39,247 nt of DNA from Candidatus Babelota bacterium (lineage in GTDB: Bacteria > Babelota > Babeliae > Babelales > JAHIUU01): NCBI GenBank assembly GCA_018817025.1, contig JAHIUU010000003.1:80854-120100 (forward strand), written 5' to 3'. The position numbers and the translations under genes were made by a program. Below, one piece after another: positions 28,657-39,247 of this stretch. Within the stretch, counting starts at the first letter, position 1. Each line of letters opens with the position of its first letter. Under the pieces are notes generated by a model. The model was not told where the DNA came from. It did not search any database and saw nothing but the letters and a program-made list of their open reading frames with translations.

Positions 28657-29610
28657 TCAAATATCTTTTTTTAGGCCAAAATTAACTAACGTATCGATAA
28701 CATATCGGGGGCGTTGCTTTACCTCCTCGAAGATTTTGCCAATGTACAAACCTATAATTCCCAAGAAAAATAGTGTTGTTGAAAAAAGAAACAACTGACT
28801 AATGAGAAGTGATGTCCAGCCGGTCATAATGACCCAGCCGTTAAGCTTCATAATAAGAGCGACAATCACCCCAACAACACAAGCTAATATAGTAAAAAGC
28901 GAGATGAAAATAATAAAGTAGATTGGAATAGTCGAGAACGAGATAATATTATCAAGCGCGAAAGCGAGAAGTCTTGAATAGTTATATTTTGTTTTTCCAG
29001 CGGCCCGTTTTTGCCTAACGAATGGAACCGCTTTTTTGGGTAGACCAGACCAGTAAATCATACCTCTAACAAACATGGAGCGTTCAGGCAGTTTTTTAAA
29101 TGCTTCTAGAGCTCTATGGCTTAACAAACAGCAATCGCCAATGTCTTTTGGCATGTCTAACTTAGTAAGCCAGCGAAATATTGGATAAAAAATTTTTGAT
29201 GTTAGTTTTTTAAAAACCGTTTCGTTTAAGCGTTTGGTTCGTTGAGCGTAGATGATGTCATACCCGTTGTGAAACTCTTTTTCAAATTGTAGCAACAGTT
29301 CCGGAGGGTCTTGTAGATCAGCGTCAAAAATCGTTATAGCGTCCCCTCGAGCATGATGTAGTCCGGCAGCGGTAGCAGCCTCATGGCCAAAGTTCCGGGT
29401 AAAAGAGATTATTTTCATATGAGAATCGTGAGAAAGCTTCTTTAGATTTGAGAGTGTGTCGTCTGTGCTTCCGTCATTAATGGCGATTATCTCGTAATCA
29501 GAGAAGTGTTGTAGTTTGGTTGCTACAGTCGTTACCTGTGTATAGAGCTTTTCGATGTTTTCTTCTTCGTTGTACATAGGTATTACGATTGAAAGCAAAC
29601 GTTTTTTCAC
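28657..29610 (-). CDS. GT2 polyprenyl-phosphate-sugar synthase-like glycosyltransferase
   Basis: This 317-residue GT2 protein shows SIVIPMYNEEENI (7-19), IAINDGSTDDT, FTRNFGHEAAT, FDADLQDPPELL with the metal-binding D-x-D-like acids, and two C-terminal membrane helices (about 230-258 and 265-290) before GKIFEEVKQRP. This is the DPM1/GtrB group, loading a sugar on undecaprenyl phosphate. It resembles the second GT2 (18744-19775) in architecture but differs in the nucleotide-side residues. The start is GTG 29610, overlapping the preceding stop as GTGA. It is placed just before asnB and three GT-C-like genes, the expected users of a lipid-phosphate sugar. Confidence 0.85.
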   Translation of the reverse strand: MKKRLLSIVIPMYNEEENIEKLYTQVTTVATKLQHFSDYEIIAINDGSTDDTLSNLKKLSHDSHMKIISFTRNFGHEAATAAGLHHARGDAITIFDADLQDPPELLLQFEKEFHNGYDIIYAQRTKRLNETVFKKLTSKIFYPIFRWLTKLDMPKDIGDCCLLSHRALEAFKKLPERSMFVRGMIYWSGLPKKAVPFVRQKRAAGKTKYNYSRLLAFALDNIISFSTIPIYFIIFISLFTILACVVGVIVALIMKLNGWVIMTGWTSLLISQLFLFSTTLFFLGIIGLYIGKIFEEVKQRPRYVIDTLVNFGLKKDI

Positions 29611-31751
29611 AACGCTAACTCTCTAACGCGCAAGCTAAGTCTTGTTGCCTGTAGAATTCGTTCATGGGACAGGGGTGTAGCGCTTCCTGTTTGTGCGGCC
29701 CTTACGAATCGCTCAAGTAGCTCTTTGTGCCCCTTATCTGGATAGTTGGTTGTTTCGTTAAATGTTCTGGGCAATCCATAGCCGGTTAATTTTTTGTAGT
29801 CGTCCAAGACGATCGATTTGCCGTCAAAAAACAGCTCCATTCTTTCTTTTTCTAGCTTTTCGTTGCCCATGGCGGTGTAAAGAAGCGTGCAAACAGAACC
29901 ATCGTCAAAAGAAATTTGTGCAGAAAAGTTATCGCTCTGACAGAGGTCTTCTCTGGTGGTATTGATGGATTGTACAGAAACATTTGTTGCTTTCGCTCCT
30001 GTCAGGAACCCGAACAGTTCAAAGATATGACATGCTTCTCCAACAATTCTGCCCCCATGCTTTTCTGATTGGATCCAATGATCTTTTGGTATAAAACCGG
30101 CGTTCACTCGATAGTGTATGATGAGTGGCGTTGTACGGTTTTTGATTGTTTTTTTTATTTTCAAAATAAATGGTGCAAACGAGCGGTTGAAGTCGACACA
30201 ATAAAGACCGTTTTTATTTGTGTTCAAAAATGTTTCAAGTTGTTTATATTGTTCGTCATTAACTGCTGCTGGTTTTTCAACGAAAACTGCTTTTCCTGCC
30301 CGTAAGCAAGCAATTGCTTGTTGGGCATGAAGCGCGTGGGGTGTTGCGATAACAACCGTGTTGATTTTGTCGTCTTGTAAAATTTCTTGATAGTTGTTGT
30401 GATAGATTGCTGCGTTATACTGCTTTGCGATATTAATAGCGTTGCTTGGATTGGTGTCGATAATTGCGTTAATACTTGCCCCCTTAATTTTTGAAACAAT
30501 AGGGAGTAGTTTTACCTTGGCAAAGCCGCCGACTCCAACAAAACCAATAGTTATTTTATCAGGTACTGCATATGCGATAGGTTGGTCTCCTGGATCCAGG
30601 ACAATGTCTGTTTTTGGTGGCTCAGGATCAAATATTTTTTCCTCGTAGGCCAAGACAAGCCCGAGTGATTTTTTTTCAATGAGCTTGCTGTACGCTTCGC
30701 TTGCGTTGTTGAACAAGAACTCCTGCGAAATAAGAGGATCGACTTGAATTTTTTTTGCTTGTACTAGATCGGCAAAAAGCTTCATATTACGATTTTCGGT
30801 CCACCTAACGTAATCATATGGATAGTCGGTGCCGTCCTGTTCATATCGAGTATCATATCGTCCTGGGCCATAGGAGCAAGAGATAAGGAAGTCGATCTCT
30901 TTTTCGTAAAAAGGGCTTCTCTTAAAATCAAGCTTTACATCGCCAACTAAAACCACTTTGCCCTTGCGTCGAGTGACCTCCATTGCCTGCTGAATAATTT
31001 CTCCCGATTGTGATGCTGCTGTTATGATGGTTGCGTCAACGCCTCGATGCTCAGTATGGAACGGGATTTCTTTTGCAAGATTAGTCGAAAGAGAGTTATA
31101 CAAATGATCACAACCAAACTTTTGGGCCAAAAATAGTTTTGAATCATCAATGTCGACCCCGTACACGGTACAGCCAGACAACTTTGCCAATTGTACGGTC
31201 AGTTGGCCGATCAACCCTAACCCAATGACACAGACACGTTCGCCAAGCGCAAGATTTGCCCGTCTGACACCCTGAAGAGCAATGGCGCCGATCGTTGTCA
31301 GACTTGCCTGCTTTAACGATTTATTGCTTGTCAGTTTGATCGCGAGGTGTTGTGGAACCGCAACATATTCTGCGTGATTAGCGACGCCTGCCCCCGCGCA
31401 AGCAACAAAGTCGCCGACTTGAAACGTGCTGATATTTTTTCCAATGGCAACCACTTGGCCCGAGCACGAGTATCCGAGGTCTATAACTTTGTTGAGAGAC
31501 CCTTTGACGAGCGCCATCGTTCCCATGATGCCATTGTCTCGGACCGCTCCCATTACTTTCGTGATTTTTTCATTTGTGTTAGAAAGACATTTTTTAAGAA
31601 GAGATTTTTTTGATTCGCAGACGGTTGCACCTTCGGTGCCCGTACTGATAAAAGAGTAAGAGACTTTTACAAGAATGGTGTTTGGATTAACCGGAGGGGT
31701 TGGAACTGGAAGTGGTTTTACTTTCCCTTTTTCCAAGAAAAGTTGCTTCAT
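29607..31751 (-). CDS. Two-domain oxidoreductase: MDR alcohol dehydrogenase fused to Gfo/Idh/MocA
   Basis: This 714-residue fusion. Residues 1-~370 form a medium-chain dehydrogenase with a Rossmann motif GLGLIGQL (177-184) and a following acidic strand end (GVDID). The usual GHE zinc-ligand motif is replaced by LGYSCSGQV, so catalytic zinc is doubtful. After a short linker, residues ~395-714 form a Gfo/Idh/MocA oxidoreductase with GFVGVGGFAK, a VIATPHALHA segment, the VFVEKPA motif and GRIVGEACHIFEL. This fusion is recurrent in polysaccharide clusters under the name bi-domain-containing oxidoreductase; its reaction is not known to me. It probably oxidises or rearranges a sugar nucleotide. The start overlaps wecC by 65 bases. 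Confidence 0.85.
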   Translation of the reverse strand: MKQLFLEKGKVKPLPVPTPPVNPNTILVKVSYSFISTGTEGATVCESKKSLLKKCLSNTNEKITKVMGAVRDNGIMGTMALVKGSLNKVIDLGYSCSGQVVAIGKNISTFQVGDFVACAGAGVANHAEYVAVPQHLAIKLTSNKSLKQASLTTIGAIALQGVRRANLALGERVCVIGLGLIGQLTVQLAKLSGCTVYGVDIDDSKLFLAQKFGCDHLYNSLSTNLAKEIPFHTEHRGVDATIITAASQSGEIIQQAMEVTRRKGKVVLVGDVKLDFKRSPFYEKEIDFLISCSYGPGRYDTRYEQDGTDYPYDYVRWTENRNMKLFADLVQAKKIQVDPLISQEFLFNNASEAYSKLIEKKSLGLVLAYEEKIFDPEPPKTDIVLDPGDQPIAYAVPDKITIGFVGVGGFAKVKLLPIVSKIKGASINAIIDTNPSNAINIAKQYNAAIYHNNYQEILQDDKINTVVIATPHALHAQQAIACLRAGKAVFVEKPAAVNDEQYKQLETFLNTNKNGLYCVDFNRSFAPFILKIKKTIKNRTTPLIIHYRVNAGFIPKDHWIQSEKHGGRIVGEACHIFELFGFLTGAKATNVSVQSINTTREDLCQSDNFSAQISFDDGSVCTLLYTAMGNEKLEKERMELFFDGKSIVLDDYKKLTGYGLPRTFNETTNYPDKGHKELLERFVRAAQTGSATPLSHERILQATRLSLRVRELAL

Positions 31752-34292: not shown

Positions 34293-37200
34293 CTATTTCG
34301 TGAACGCCAACTTGACGAGCGCCCCTGCAATTTGACCAACGCTGTTGGCAGGGTTATTTAGGTTGAACTGGAATGAAGCGGTTTTCGTGGTGCCGAGCGT
34401 TGTAACGGTTAGAGTGATTTTCGGTAGGATTCCTTTCTTTAAAAAGTCTCGCAAGCTTCCATAGATAGTTGCTTTTTTGATATCGAGAAGTTTTTCAATG
34501 TTGAGAGCTCCTTCAGCAATGTTTTTTGCCGCTTCACTCAGACCAATGGCGGTTTGTTTTGCTCCTTCGAGAATACCGTTGGCGATATTTCGTGAGGAGA
34601 TCAATGTTGTTCTCGCGATTGATAGGCCCGAGATTTCGGTTCCCCATTTGGTTATTTCAGTATGTTCTTTGAGATTTTTAGGATCGAGCTCGCAGGTTCC
34701 CTTTGCAATTTCGAGTGCTGCCAGTGCCGTGTGGAGTCCTATTTCGGTGGTGATGATCATACCTGCTTCGATGCTTGCGATTGCAGCCTGAGCGATTTTT
34801 AGACCACCTATGCAGCCCCAGTAGAGAGGCATACTCCACCACTTATATAAGTCCTTGCATTTTTTCTCAGTTTCGAACACTTTTCTACGTGCGTTGGCCA
34901 GCTTTTCTTTTTCTATTTTTACTTTTTCTCGCTCTTTATTAACGTTTGCTTGGGCGTCACGAAGCTTTTGTTGGTTGTTCCATATTCGCTGTTTCATTGT
35001 TTTTTGCAGTGACCTAATTTTGTTTTGGCGCCACTTGATATGGTTTTCGGTTTTTGAGATTTCGCCATTGATTTTATTGACCTCTTTTTTTGCCTCGTCT
35101 ATTCCTTTGGAGACTCCTTTTTGAAAGTTTTTTACGTCCCTTCTCATTTGCTTTTTAATTTCCAAGTAAAAATCGCTTTGAAGTTCTCCTTCGGCGATGA
35201 AATCGAACGTTTGCTTGGTTGTTCCGGTTGATACAACATGGAAGTATGATTGAAAGAGGTTTGCAAATTTTCCAGAGGTTTCAAATGAAAAGCTTGTCGA
35301 AGTGATGTCGATCGATGTTCTGCTTTTTATGCCAAAAAAATCGACGATACCATCGAGATAGAATTTTGGTGTTTTGCTAATTTCTAGATAGACGACCGGC
35401 CCATCGTCTGCGGTTCCCATTTTTTTATCGAGACCGGTGCCGCTTACTTTGAGTGGGCCGATGTTCATTTTGGGTGCAGTTGCTTGTGCCCGAAACCCAT
35501 TATTATCGATTTGTGCTTTGAGATGAACGGGGATTTTGACGAGAGGGAGTATTGTGGTTCCCTCGAGTGAGAACCCCGGGGGGTACTTGTATCCTTCGAA
35601 TACTACTTCTTTCCCTGCGATGCCGATGTTGATATCACGAAATTCTAGTAACGGTGAGAAAACTTCAAGTGCTTTGGCTGGGATCGGTCGTTTTTTGATT
35701 GCGCCTTCGATAATATCGTTTGTGGTTTCGAGACAGCCCTCGAGCGAGAGCTCATTGAGATGGAAGAGTAAGACGTTGTCTTTGTCCTCTTTGCCGAGGT
35801 AACCGTATAGTCTCGCATATTGTCTGCCCAGTTTTATTTTTCCATTGAGTTCAAATGCTTTATAGCCCTCGAGTGTTTTTGCGTAAATTGTGGCATCAAA
35901 CGCGTTGAGAATTTTTGCATCGAGGTTGAATGTAAAGCCATCTTTACCGATATCAAGAAAGATTCCTGCGCCTGTAGAGCCAAATAGATCAATCGAACCT
36001 GAAAGGGTGAGCGACTGTTGGGTTTGGGTTAAAATTAGGTTCGCATAGGGGCCGTCGTCTTCGGTGTTAAATAGCTTGTCTGGGCCTGAACCGGTTACGA
36101 GAAGTGGTCCGAACTTCCATTTTTTCATTGATGCTTCAGCGATGAGGCCTTTTTCTCTGCTCAGGCTGACAAGAGCTGTTCCATATAAATTTATTTCGGG
36201 GATTTCTATTTTGCCTTTATAGCCGATGCCGTTTTCTTCGAAGGCTCGGGCGATTTCTTTAAAGTAGTCTGGAAGGGCGTAGTTGAGATTAAATTTGAGA
36301 TTTTTGAAGCCAATGTCGGGAAGGGTATTAAGAATTTTGTTGAGCTCCTCGGATTCTTCTTTTGTGAGGTTTTTTCGCAGTTCTTCTTCTTTGATTTCGA
36401 GACCCTCTCGTAAAGGTGCTTTGACTCGCTTTTTTCGTATGGCTTCAAAGATTTCTTTGGCAAATGTTTCAGTGGCTGTCAAAGACATTTTACCAATCGA
36501 CTCTTCGGGCTCTTTTTCTGTTTCAACAGGTTCTTCTTTTTTCTCTTCGATTACTTCTTTTGTTTTTGCTTCCGGTCTTTTTTCGCTAACAGGTTCTTCT
36601 TCTGGTTCTTCCTCCTCATCAATAAGTTCTTCTGGCTCATTTTCTTCTTCAGGATCATCAGGATTGTCATCGTCAGTTTCGAGTACGATGGGCTCGTTTG
36701 GTTGGTCTACTTGAGCAATCAGTTTTAGGGGCGTTGGGGTTGTAAGATATTTTTTTGATAGAGCGAGTGTGTTGAAGCGTTGGGATTCAAGTATTTTTTG
36801 TCGATAGTTTTGATGGTTATAGAGAGCTAGCTTGGGTGGGCTTATCTTAGCGGCTTTTTTCTCTGCTTTGATTCGTGCTTCTTTAATTTTTTCTTGTTCT
36901 GCTTTTCTCTGCTTTGCTTCAGCCTCGAGACGAGCGATTTTTCGGATGTCTTCCCTAATTCCTGCGCCTAGAAGTATTGCTGCTTCGACTGAATCTCTTA
37001 TGGTGAAGCGGTTTAGAAAGAATTTTAGCTGTGCTAGTTTTGTATCGATGCGTCCTGAGATTGTTGCTTTTTGTCTTCCGAATATTATTTTTCCGTCGAG
37101 GGTAAGGGCTAGTTTTTCAAAGTCGAGCCCACCCTCGGAGTGGATGTGGAGTTCCGAGTCGAAAACATTGAAGAGTTTTAATTTTGTGTCGATATCAACG

Positions 37201-39247
37201 CCTGTTAAATCGATGGAGACTTCGACGTTTCCTCGAGATTCAAAGAAGTCGACAAGTCCCGAAAGGTACAATTCTTGGTTCCTTGGAGTGAGCGCGAGTC
37301 TTGCGATTGGTCCGTCATCTTTTGTTCCGTACTCTCTATCTTCGCCTGCACCGCTAATTTTGAGCGGTCCAACGTTAAAGGCAGGCATTTTTGCGAACAT
37401 GAGGACGCCCATGTCGAGTCCTGGTGTCATGTTAACACGAAAGTCTGCTTCCGCGTATCGGTCGAGGATTTCAACTCTTCCCTTAAAACGAATCCCCATT
37501 GGATATCTTTTGTATATGGGGCCAACACGAATTAATCCCCCAAATGGAGCAAAGTTAAGCTCGACGTCATGTATGCCAACATTGGGAAGAGTTTTAAGCT
37601 CGATAGGAGCACCGAGATTTTTAGGAATTGATGCGATGTCTCGCAATGTTAGGTGATTGATTGATGAGAAAAAGACAATATTTCTTGGGTTAGCAAGATC
37701 AACAAGTGTTGTTAATTCTGCGCGAACATGGTTTTTTGGATCTTTCTGGTCGCCAAGAATCGTTATGCCGGTAAAGCCCATTTTTTGCGGCATGATGACC
37801 GTGACGGGATCTGGACGAGCAGAGAATTCAAGTCCAACGTCTTCTATAACAATTCCCCTTAGGCCGAAAGGGTCGACCCAGCGTCCTTTCATGCCGCCCT
37901 GAATGCCAAACACCCCGAGCGGGTTAATGGTAAATGCTCCGCTAAAGATAAGTGGTAAGTCGTTGATTCTTGGGATGACTTCAACGGTAGATTGGAAAGC
38001 GATTTGAGGTGGCGTGCCCATAAGTATGAGCTGAAGGTTTTTCAGAACTATTTTTGGAATATCAAATGGAGTTTGGTAGAGCTTTTTGCTCATTAACGTT
38101 ATGTCGATAGGTATTGATGCGAGAAATGAGGTTAGCGTAGGGGTGGAGATTTTACCTACGAATTGAGCTGGTTTTGGTTGGACTTTGACAGCTTCAAATA
38201 CTTTATCGAGCCCGGGAATTTTTTGTGGGAAAATTGTTGCGGAAAAGGTTATTCCTGGAACAATATTGGTTTTCAAGTTTGGTTCGTAGTAGTTGTAGGT
38301 TGATGCGACGAGCTTTATATCGTCCAAGACTTCTGTTACTGGAGCAAGCACCGGAGATATTTTTGTTAGATCTAAATCTTTTAATGCTGGGACGGCATAC
38401 AGAGAGAGTTTTTTGGCGCCAGCGATTTCTAATTTGACGTTGCATGGAATATCTAATATTGTTGCGGTTCCACCGAAGTAAATTCTTTTTACTTTTCCAA
38501 GTGTTATTCCGATAAATGGGTCTGAAATCGTTACATCTTGTAAGCCGACGACATTACTGTTTTTAAAAGGTCGGAATGGCTTTTTTGATACGAGTTCGCC
38601 TCGAAAATCAAACATGTATTCTTTTTTACCTGTTGTTTGATCGATATATCGAGAGCCACGAAGGTAGGCGACAACATCTTTCCCAAGGACATTGGCGCTT
38701 CCTTTAATGAAAAATGTTCCATCGGTTGAGAAGACAACGGTTGGATCTTTTATCAAGACGTCGGCAAACCGTAGTGTTTTTTTTATTTGTGCCTCAAAGA
38801 CGATGTTTCCTCGAGGACGTGGGCGACGCTTTCCTAGCCCAAGACCTGTTTTTGTCTGTGCAGGGGTTGTTATTCCTGACATGTCCATCTTTCCCATGCC
38901 AGTAGTGCCCATATCCCCTGATCGCACCCATTTTCCAGTTATAGCAACATCGACTTTTCCTATGCCGAGAGGAAGGTTGAGGGTTGCGTTTCCGGAGAGA
39001 CTGAATGGTGAGCCATAGGCCGCTGTTCCCACGCTTGTATCGTCAACAAACTCTTCTTCTTTTTCTTCTTCTTCTTCTTCTTTTTCTTCTTCTTCTTCGG
39101 GTTCGTTTTCAGTATCTACGGCTTCTTCTTTTTCTTCAGGTTCTTCTTCTAGCTCAGGTTCTTTTGGTTCGACTTCTGGTTTTATCCTGAGGCCTTTTGG
39201 CGGTTCAGGTGTTTTGGGCTCTTCTTTTTCTTCAGGTTCTTCTTCTA
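34293..39247 (-). CDS. Giant modular beta-rich protein with DDGP repeats, 5' end beyond the window
   Basis: I do not recognise this gene. The frame is open through the right edge (first full codon 39245), giving at least 1650 residues; a GTG at 39032 is not a credible start because coding-type sequence continues upstream. The order is: Glu/Pro/Lys-rich segment (visible 1-~65); beta-rich sequence with several similar ~200-residue modules; a coil-forming KAEQEKIKEARIKAE stretch (~37000-36850) and acidic linker (~36700-36500); two more modules; a charged coiled coil (~35150-34860); Ala/Ile-rich helices with several Cys (~34850-34500); and a final beta segment. Three modules carry an identical-length motif ending TxDDGP. 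No enzyme motif is seen. Repeated beta modules suggest a surface, periplasmic or lipid-transfer-like scaffold; that is inference. It ends 58 bases before wecB. Confidence 0.8.
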   Translation of the reverse strand, partial: EEEPEEKEEPKTPEPPKGLRIKPEVEPKEPELEEEPEEKEEAVDTENEPEEEEEKEEEEEEKEEEFVDDTSVGTAAYGSPFSLSGNATLNLPLGIGKVDVAITGKWVRSGDMGTTGMGKMDMSGITTPAQTKTGLGLGKRRPRPRGNIVFEAQIKKTLRFADVLIKDPTVVFSTDGTFFIKGSANVLGKDVVAYLRGSRYIDQTTGKKEYMFDFRGELVSKKPFRPFKNSNVVGLQDVTISDPFIGITLGKVKRIYFGGTATILDIPCNVKLEIAGAKKLSLYAVPALKDLDLTKISPVLAPVTEVLDDIKLVASTYNYYEPNLKTNIVPGITFSATIFPQKIPGLDKVFEAVKVQPKPAQFVGKISTPTLTSFLASIPIDITLMSKKLYQTPFDIPKIVLKNLQLILMGTPPQIAFQSTVEVIPRINDLPLIFSGAFTINPLGVFGIQGGMKGRWVDPFGLRGIVIEDVGLEFSARPDPVTVIMPQKMGFTGITILGDQKDPKNHVRAELTTLVDLANPRNIVFFSSINHLTLRDIASIPKNLGAPIELKTLPNVGIHDVELNFAPFGGLIRVGPIYKRYPMGIRFKGRVEILDRYAEADFRVNMTPGLDMGVLMFAKMPAFNVGPLKISGAGEDREYGTKDDGPIARLALTPRNQELYLSGLVDFFESRGNVEVSIDLTGVDIDTKLKLFNVFDSELHIHSEGGLDFEKLALTLDGKIIFGRQKATISGRIDTKLAQLKFFLNRFTIRDSVEAAILLGAGIREDIRKIARLEAEAKQRKAEQEKIKEARIKAEKKAAKISPPKLALYNHQNYRQKILESQRFNTLALSKKYLTTPTPLKLIAQVDQPNEPIVLETDDDNPDDPEEENEPEELIDEEEEPEEEPVSEKRPEAKTKEVIEEKKEEPVETEKEPEESIGKMSLTATETFAKEIFEAIRKKRVKAPLREGLEIKEEELRKNLTKEESEELNKILNTLPDIGFKNLKFNLNYALPDYFKEIARAFEENGIGYKGKIEIPEINLYGTALVSLSREKGLIAEASMKKWKFGPLLVTGSGPDKLFNTEDDGPYANLILTQTQQSLTLSGSIDLFGSTGAGIFLDIGKDGFTFNLDAKILNAFDATIYAKTLEGYKAFELNGKIKLGRQYARLYGYLGKEDKDNVLLFHLNELSLEGCLETTNDIIEGAIKKRPIPAKALEVFSPLLEFRDINIGIAGKEVVFEGYKYPPGFSLEGTTILPLVKIPVHLKAQIDNNGFRAQATAPKMNIGPLKVSGTGLDKKMGTADDGPVVYLEISKTPKFYLDGIVDFFGIKSRTSIDITSTSFSFETSGKFANLFQSYFHVVSTGTTKQTFDFIAEGELQSDFYLEIKKQMRRDVKNFQKGVSKGIDEAKKEVNKINGEISKTENHIKWRQNKIRSLQKTMKQRIWNNQQKLRDAQANVNKEREKVKIEKEKLANARRKVFETEKKCKDLYKWWSMPLYWGCIGGLKIAQAAIASIEAGMIITTEIGLHTALAALEIAKGTCELDPKNLKEHTEITKWGTEISGLSIARTTLISSRNIANGILEGAKQTAIGLSEAAKNIAEGALNIEKLLDIKKATIYGSLRDFLKKGILPKITLTVTTLGTTKTASFQFNLNNPANSVGQIAGALVKLAFTK
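35397..35459 (-). repeat. 21-residue GPL...DDGP motif, third copy
   Basis: This encodes GPLKVSG-TGLDKKMG-TADDGP. It has the same length and spacing as the copies at 36048-36110 and 37308-37370: GPL-x-(I/V)-(S/T)-G-x-G-x-D-x4-T-x-DDGP. The fixed Asp spacing could bind calcium. It is 651 bases after the second copy in gene order. Confidence 0.8.
36048..36110 (-). repeat. 21-residue GPL...DDGP motif, second copy
   Basis: This encodes GPLLVTG-SGPDKLFN-TEDDGP. It lies at the centre of a module that begins near a LNTLPDIGFKNL segment and ends near the LDGNKI-like strand before 35700. It follows the acidic linker that separates it from the first copy. Confidence 0.8.
36500..36700 (-). repeat. Acidic low-complexity linker in the giant protein
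   Basis: About 65 codons here are mostly Glu, Asp, Pro and Lys, with runs such as EEEEPEEEP and KTKEVIEEKKEEP. On the plus strand it shows as CTT/TTC-rich DNA. It probably forms a flexible, negatively charged spacer between the first and second DDGP modules and resembles the segment at the right window edge. Confidence 0.75.
37308..37370 (-). repeat. 21-residue GPL...DDGP motif, first copy
   Basis: This encodes GPLKISG-AGEDREYG-TKDDGP, about residue 625-645 of the visible protein. After it comes a conserved LxLT...LxLSGxxDFF block that recurs after the other copies. Confidence 0.8.
39051..39098 (-). repeat. CTT/TTC microsatellite coding a poly-Glu run
   Basis: Near-perfect CTT repeats on the plus strand encode about 16 almost uninterrupted Glu and Lys codons (GAA, AAA) of the giant protein. 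Triplet period keeps the frame open, so length changes in multiples of three would be tolerated. Confidence 0.85.
39125..39151 (-). repeat. 27-base direct repeat, inner copy
   Basis: This is identical over 27 bases to 39221-39247, exactly 96 bases (32 codons) away and in the same frame. It encodes EEEPEEKEE. The outer copy meets the window edge, so the true repeat may be longer or present in more copies. Confidence 0.85.
39221..39247 (-). repeat. 27-base direct repeat, outer copy at window edge
   Basis: This is the second copy of the 27-base repeat, cut by the end of the window. In-frame spacing of 32 codons suggests a tandem Pro/Glu-rich protein repeat that extends beyond the right edge. 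Confidence 0.8.

Follow-up and report, generated by a model that had tools for sequence, protein, structure and literature searches.

An undescribed family of large exported proteins in Dependentiae, predicted to be beta-rich and resembling ApoB100 in kind

ApoB100 and the other large lipid transfer proteins are very long secreted proteins with an extended amphipathic beta sheet and interspersed helices. The TamB/AsmA proteins and VPS13-type bridges are modular and all-beta, have a length that scales with the number of units, and belong to an exported or envelope context. Both descriptions recall the predicted architecture of a giant protein from Dependentiae (candidate division TM6), widespread parasites of protists that live inside single-celled hosts and whose exported proteins are mostly unexplained. 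Unlike the ApoB100 group, this protein is bacterial, shows no recognisable vitellogenin-type domain and no vitellogenin or ApoB homology in Pfam, NCBIfam or PDB sequences, and gives low TM-scores. From the same phylum, Babela massiliensis has large secreted proteins with a Cys-rich domain and a beta-barrel domain (PMC4378268). The giant protein is likewise large, apparently secreted and beta-rich, but has no Cys-rich N-terminal domain, a distinction drawn from their published description (PMC4378268).

The gene lies at the end of the stretch of Dependentiae DNA analysed here (the window: 39,247 nucleotides, C18:80854-120100 of the assembly), where window and contig end together (Table 1). The first 41 residues of its open frame are 100% identical to the end of contig C16 from the same genome, and the ends of C16 and C18 have an exact 121-base suffix-prefix overlap inside the 96-base tandem repeat. 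Assemblies often break at such repeats, and we infer that C16 joins C18 and that the gene truly begins beyond the window, on C16. The frame there opens with MRVDRRLLSLCIVSFIFFVSVSTPLYFQS, judged from its sequence to be a signal peptide, and runs on into the acidic tandem repeat. Based on this signal peptide and the contig overlap, the giant protein is predicted to be exported; by a crude rule, 31 of the 46 relatives with an intact start also have an N-terminal signal-peptide-like stretch. The same strand of C16 carries, immediately upstream, a 99-residue frame and the genes of an exported protein of 359 residues and of an Omp85/POTRA protein.

Table 1. Coordinates of the giant gene, its parts and the genes upstream of it. 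Positions are those of the window unless a contig is named; residue numbers refer to P0002.
Feature	Position	Strand	Remarks
Giant open frame P0001	34293-39245	-	1650 codons inside the window; N-terminus cut off by contig end
Glu/Pro-rich acidic region with 32-residue (96-base) tandem repeat	39033-39245	-	runs on into contig C16
N-terminal beta region, 1-470	37623-39032	-	family-conserved; units multiplied in some relatives
Module 1, 475-685	36978-37610	-	self-search and module profile
DDGP motif 1	37308-37370	-	GPLKISGAGEDREYGTKDDGP; regex match
Linker between modules 1 and 2, helical and acidic	36348-36977	-	acidic run 36594-36674
Module 2, 898-1105	35718-36341	-	module profile
DDGP motif 2	36048-36110	-	GPLLVTGSGPDKLFNTEDDGP; regex match
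Module 3, 1120-1318	35079-35675	-	module profile
DDGP motif 3	35397-35459	-	GPLKVSGTGLDKKMGTADDGP; regex match
Long helical/coiled-coil region, 1287-1515	34488-35174	-	structure model
C-terminal domain, strand-helix-hairpin-helix, 1516-1579	34296-34487	-	model and family comparison
Omp85/POTRA gene	G000:C16, L005:12259-14934	same as giant gene
359-residue exported protein	G000:C16, L005:15005-16084	same as giant gene
99-residue frame	G000:C16, L002:1037-1336	same as giant gene	same leader as giant gene

The first-pass annotation had described at least three modules sharing a 21-residue motif of invariant length, each followed by a strand set of the form LxL..LxLxGxxDFF(G). The motif GPL..[ST]G.G.D....T.DDGP has exactly three regex matches in the giant frame, all ungapped, and a six-frame scan found neither DDGP nor G.D....T.DDG elsewhere in the window. 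Module 1 as a query matches module 2 at 9.5e-22 and module 3 at 8.2e-18; all three are matched, at 1e-50 to 3e-61, by a module profile to which the window modules themselves contributed. On these comparisons the three modules of about 200 residues are true repeats, three and no more, and the constant motif length holds within the window but varies across the family. The strand sets (LALTPRNQELYLSGLVDFF, LILTQTQQSLTLSGSIDLFG and LEISKTPKFYLDGIVDFFG) are present after all three motifs, with DLFG in place of DFFG in the second. The N-terminal 470 or so residues are beta-rich and distinct from the DDGP module, and the first 30 or so residues of the coiled-coil region are also covered by the tail of the profile match to module 3.

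No relationship of the giant protein was found in Pfam, NCBIfam or PDB sequences, in agreement with the earlier view that it falls in no recognisable family. Matches to laminin, SMC and similar proteins were coiled-coil artefacts well below the cut-off. A phage origin was rejected, with no match in the phage collection, no viral contig carrying the motif pattern and no BFVD match at E <= 1e-3. Within Dependentiae, the window protein alone as a query matched 15 of 49 genomes (its own included). Of 101 genomes, 38 matched the module profile and 37 a long profile that covers the N-terminal half together with the module. By these sequence matches the protein belongs to an undescribed family of large exported proteins that spans Dependentiae, patchily distributed over about ten families of the phylum, with homology across about 600 residues and E-values down to 1e-153. 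Divergence is strong, the relatives being 16-28% identical to the window protein. The family appears to be new, and is undescribed in Pfam, NCBIfam, PDB sequences and the phage collection, but of a broadly known kind, that of giant exported beta-rich proteins.

Comparison within the family separates fixed from variable parts. Going by the module profile, nearly all relatives have one module, and the three in the window protein are exceptional. About half of the modules in the alignment keep the DDGP loop; since many relatives replace it with other loops, it is a variable hairpin rather than part of the core, dispensable in many members and not the defining element of the family. The parts that sequence comparison marks as fixed are the long beta region, the coiled coil and the conserved C-terminal domain. 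Repeated long-profile matches within L039, L042 and L096 indicate multiplication of the N-terminal beta unit, and a 4775-residue open frame (G005:C12, about 53968-67860) holds many copies of it. In one member (L115:1547-4204, + strand) the mature N-terminus, NFYDVLGVDQNAS, resembles by reading the start of a J-domain.

An initial protein scan of the genome-contig collection gave no match. The back-translated pattern D-G-x-Y-G-T-x-D-D-G-P, run on 84,980 species genomes, gave nine stretches, of which six belong to the family by profile (three in TM6 MAG GW2011_GWF2_32_72 and one each in TM6 UASB340, TM6 RIFCSPHIGHO2_12_FULL_36_22 and SI074_bin86) and three are unrelated; this single motif pattern found no family member beyond Dependentiae. 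Proteins from Lentzea and Saprospiraceae carry the same 11-residue signature but do not match the module profile, and the sharing is likely to be convergent.

The C-terminal domain, of about 65 residues, is well conserved in relatives (G.L..L..GKLP...I.....G......FDF.NP). In ten cases (L027, L032 twice, L033, L038, L092, L105, L108 twice, L118) it is encoded on its own, by a gene that lies next downstream in the same orientation, and most of these genes have a leader too. Because the two parts are fused in some genomes and adjacent genes in others, it seems likely that they act together, and this arrangement of the genes suggests a two-part machine. Two possible links to apolipoproteins were discarded: an ApoLp-III match of one partner gene was not significant (E 0.11), and an apolipoprotein-like periodicity in the C-terminal helix lay at the edge of chance.

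To model the fold, we ran AlphaFold on residues 2-720 with an alignment of 46 window and relative sequences. The first half was modelled with confidence as all-beta (pLDDT 82.9, pTM 0.67), with over 30 strands but only a few helices, which bears out the repeated beta architecture read earlier from the sequence; DDGP motif 1 forms a loop, ordered in the model (pLDDT about 90), that connects two short strands. The model of residues 881-1579 is weaker (pLDDT 67.1, pTM 0.44), with beta modules, a helical region of more than 200 residues and then a small strand/helix domain. Polar/apolar alternation along the strands scores 3.08 against 1.68 +/- 0.22 in within-strand shuffles, 0 of 500 of which reach 3.08. 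The fold is therefore predicted to be all-beta with alternating polar and apolar strands, a pattern that by itself is also compatible with soluble beta sandwiches.

Using the first-half model, Foldseek gave no match in the PDB at E <= 1e-3; ApoB100 (9coo) ranked third with the highest probability (0.94, E 5.8e-3). For the second half, ApoB100 (9ea7) ranked first (probability 0.99, E 1.4e-4) and was the sole match at E <= 1e-3, a match that also covers the helical part and comes from the weak model (pLDDT 67). Outer-membrane barrels and MORN proteins were also among the Foldseek matches. As the TM-scores of the ApoB100 matches are low throughout (0.13-0.21 on the query), we take the likeness as a resemblance in kind and not as shown homology; it may reflect no more than a "long beta meander" in both. 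The first-pass guess of a lipid-transfer scaffold thus gains weak structural support from ApoB100 and none from sequence.

The genomic context was also considered. In the window, the giant gene is followed on its 3' side by WecB-type epimerase, UDP-sugar dehydrogenase and glycosyltransferase genes, with asparagine synthase-type and mannosyltransferase-type genes in the same locus and NeuB and an ABC transporter further on. An envelope or host-contact role had been proposed from this glycan locus, an argument that is not supported, as relatives adjoin an M16 peptidase and other unrelated genes. A 714-residue frame in the window (29607-31751, - strand) joins two enzyme halves, one a zinc-type alcohol dehydrogenase and the other a GFO/IDH/MocA oxidoreductase. 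Lipid auxotrophy was set aside as an explanation because the window's genome encodes FabF and LpxC, and FabF does not track the family (present in 7 of 38 carriers and 11 of 63 others). A ketoacyl-synthase match occurs in only 18 of the 101 Dependentiae genomes, the window's genome among them. Chromulinavorax, a relative in culture, gives no evidence of lipid synthesis (PMC6561590).

The explanation that we place first, though tentatively, is an exported, extendable amphipathic beta-sheet protein that probably binds lipid or membranes. The beta region would form a long amphipathic sheet, longer or shorter according to how many units it has, and its apolar face would bind lipid or rest on a membrane in the periplasm, on the outer surface or in a host compartment, a role analogous to that of the ApoB100 belt. 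The coiled coil and C-terminal domain may dock onto or cap this sheet, and the Asp-rich loops may make hairpins more rigid, perhaps by binding calcium. Overall, the protein of this intracellular bacterium would carry, bridge or coat lipid at the cell envelope. That obligate intracellular Dependentiae have developed ApoB-like amphipathic beta belts of their own, adjustable in length and with a C-terminal partner that can be detached, moving or packaging lipid between bacterial and host membranes, is a bolder proposal that we consider unlikely. The work defines one large exported Dependentiae family, with its fixed parts, variable parts and split partner gene. If the lipid reading is true, the family would give bacteria a parallel to ApoB-type lipid carriage and would bear on the membrane supply of those members of the phylum without fatty-acid synthesis genes.

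A serious rival, which we rank almost as likely, is a surface scaffold or adhesin, an extended beta stack that touches host molecules, either from the outer membrane or after secretion into the host. Its Asp loops would gain rigidity by binding calcium, and the acidic repeat would serve as a flexible stalk. The signal peptide and acidic Glu/Pro stalk fit this proposal, and the variable length and unit number and the patchy, diverged distribution are as expected for host contact. The large secretomes of Dependentiae are in keeping with it (PMC6561590, PMC4378268). Contrary to it, no adhesin, RTX or autotransporter domain was found in Pfam or NCBIfam, nor a cadherin or SdrD-B repeat domain, and no outer-membrane anchor motif was recognised; the conserved C-terminal domain and its partner-gene form suggest a machine over a display stalk. 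It is improbable that the protein is an ordinary lineage-specific secreted orphan, a generic envelope structure with no special role. The lack of a known function and the patchy distribution would suit an orphan, but homology of such length across about ten families shows long-term selection.

Ranked behind the orphan, and also improbable, is a periplasm-spanning, TamB/AsmA-like lipid bridge paired with the Omp85 encoded upstream on C16. This is a second Omp85/POTRA gene, on the same strand, and it had prompted the idea of a TamA/TamB operon. Among well-assembled genomes the family is also commoner where TamB is missing, being present in 8 of 11 genomes without detectable TamB (G002, G014, G024, G029, G051, G054, G058 and G090) against 19 of 57 with it (Fisher p = 0.02, uncorrected for ancestry). 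Both the bridge and the operon are weakened by a separate canonical TamB gene elsewhere in the window's genome, by the absence of a TamB domain from the giant protein with a null profile-profile comparison (probability under 1%), and by Omp85 adjacency, of which the listed coordinates of relatives give no sign of conservation. VPS13, ATG2 and TamB are all absent from the Foldseek top 50, a third of genomes have the family while nearly all have two Omp85 genes, and where TamB has its inner-membrane anchor the giant protein has a signal peptide of cleavable type. Least probable of all, and very unlikely, is that the protein forms one very large beta barrel in the outer membrane, or several barrels. 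SlpA, LptD and TonB-dependent receptors are among the Foldseek matches, and strands of about 10 residues alternate between polar and apolar. The TM-scores of the Foldseek matches are only 0.07-0.23 on the query, however, with no barrel match above 0.23 for the first half; the protein ends in a helix without a terminal barrel signal, and helices and the highly charged linker break up the strands.

Some further features of contig C16 deserve mention. The first 140 bases of the 99-residue frame match the start of the giant gene at 133 positions, and its end (HNAQIKVGTQI) resembles that of the 359-residue protein; these mixed likenesses may be signs of local recombination. The contig also encodes two signal-peptide proteins with RING-like Cys/His patterns at the end (L004:13205-15238 and L005:7215-7919, both on the - strand) and a run of small secreted coiled-coil proteins, which together look like a host-directed cluster.
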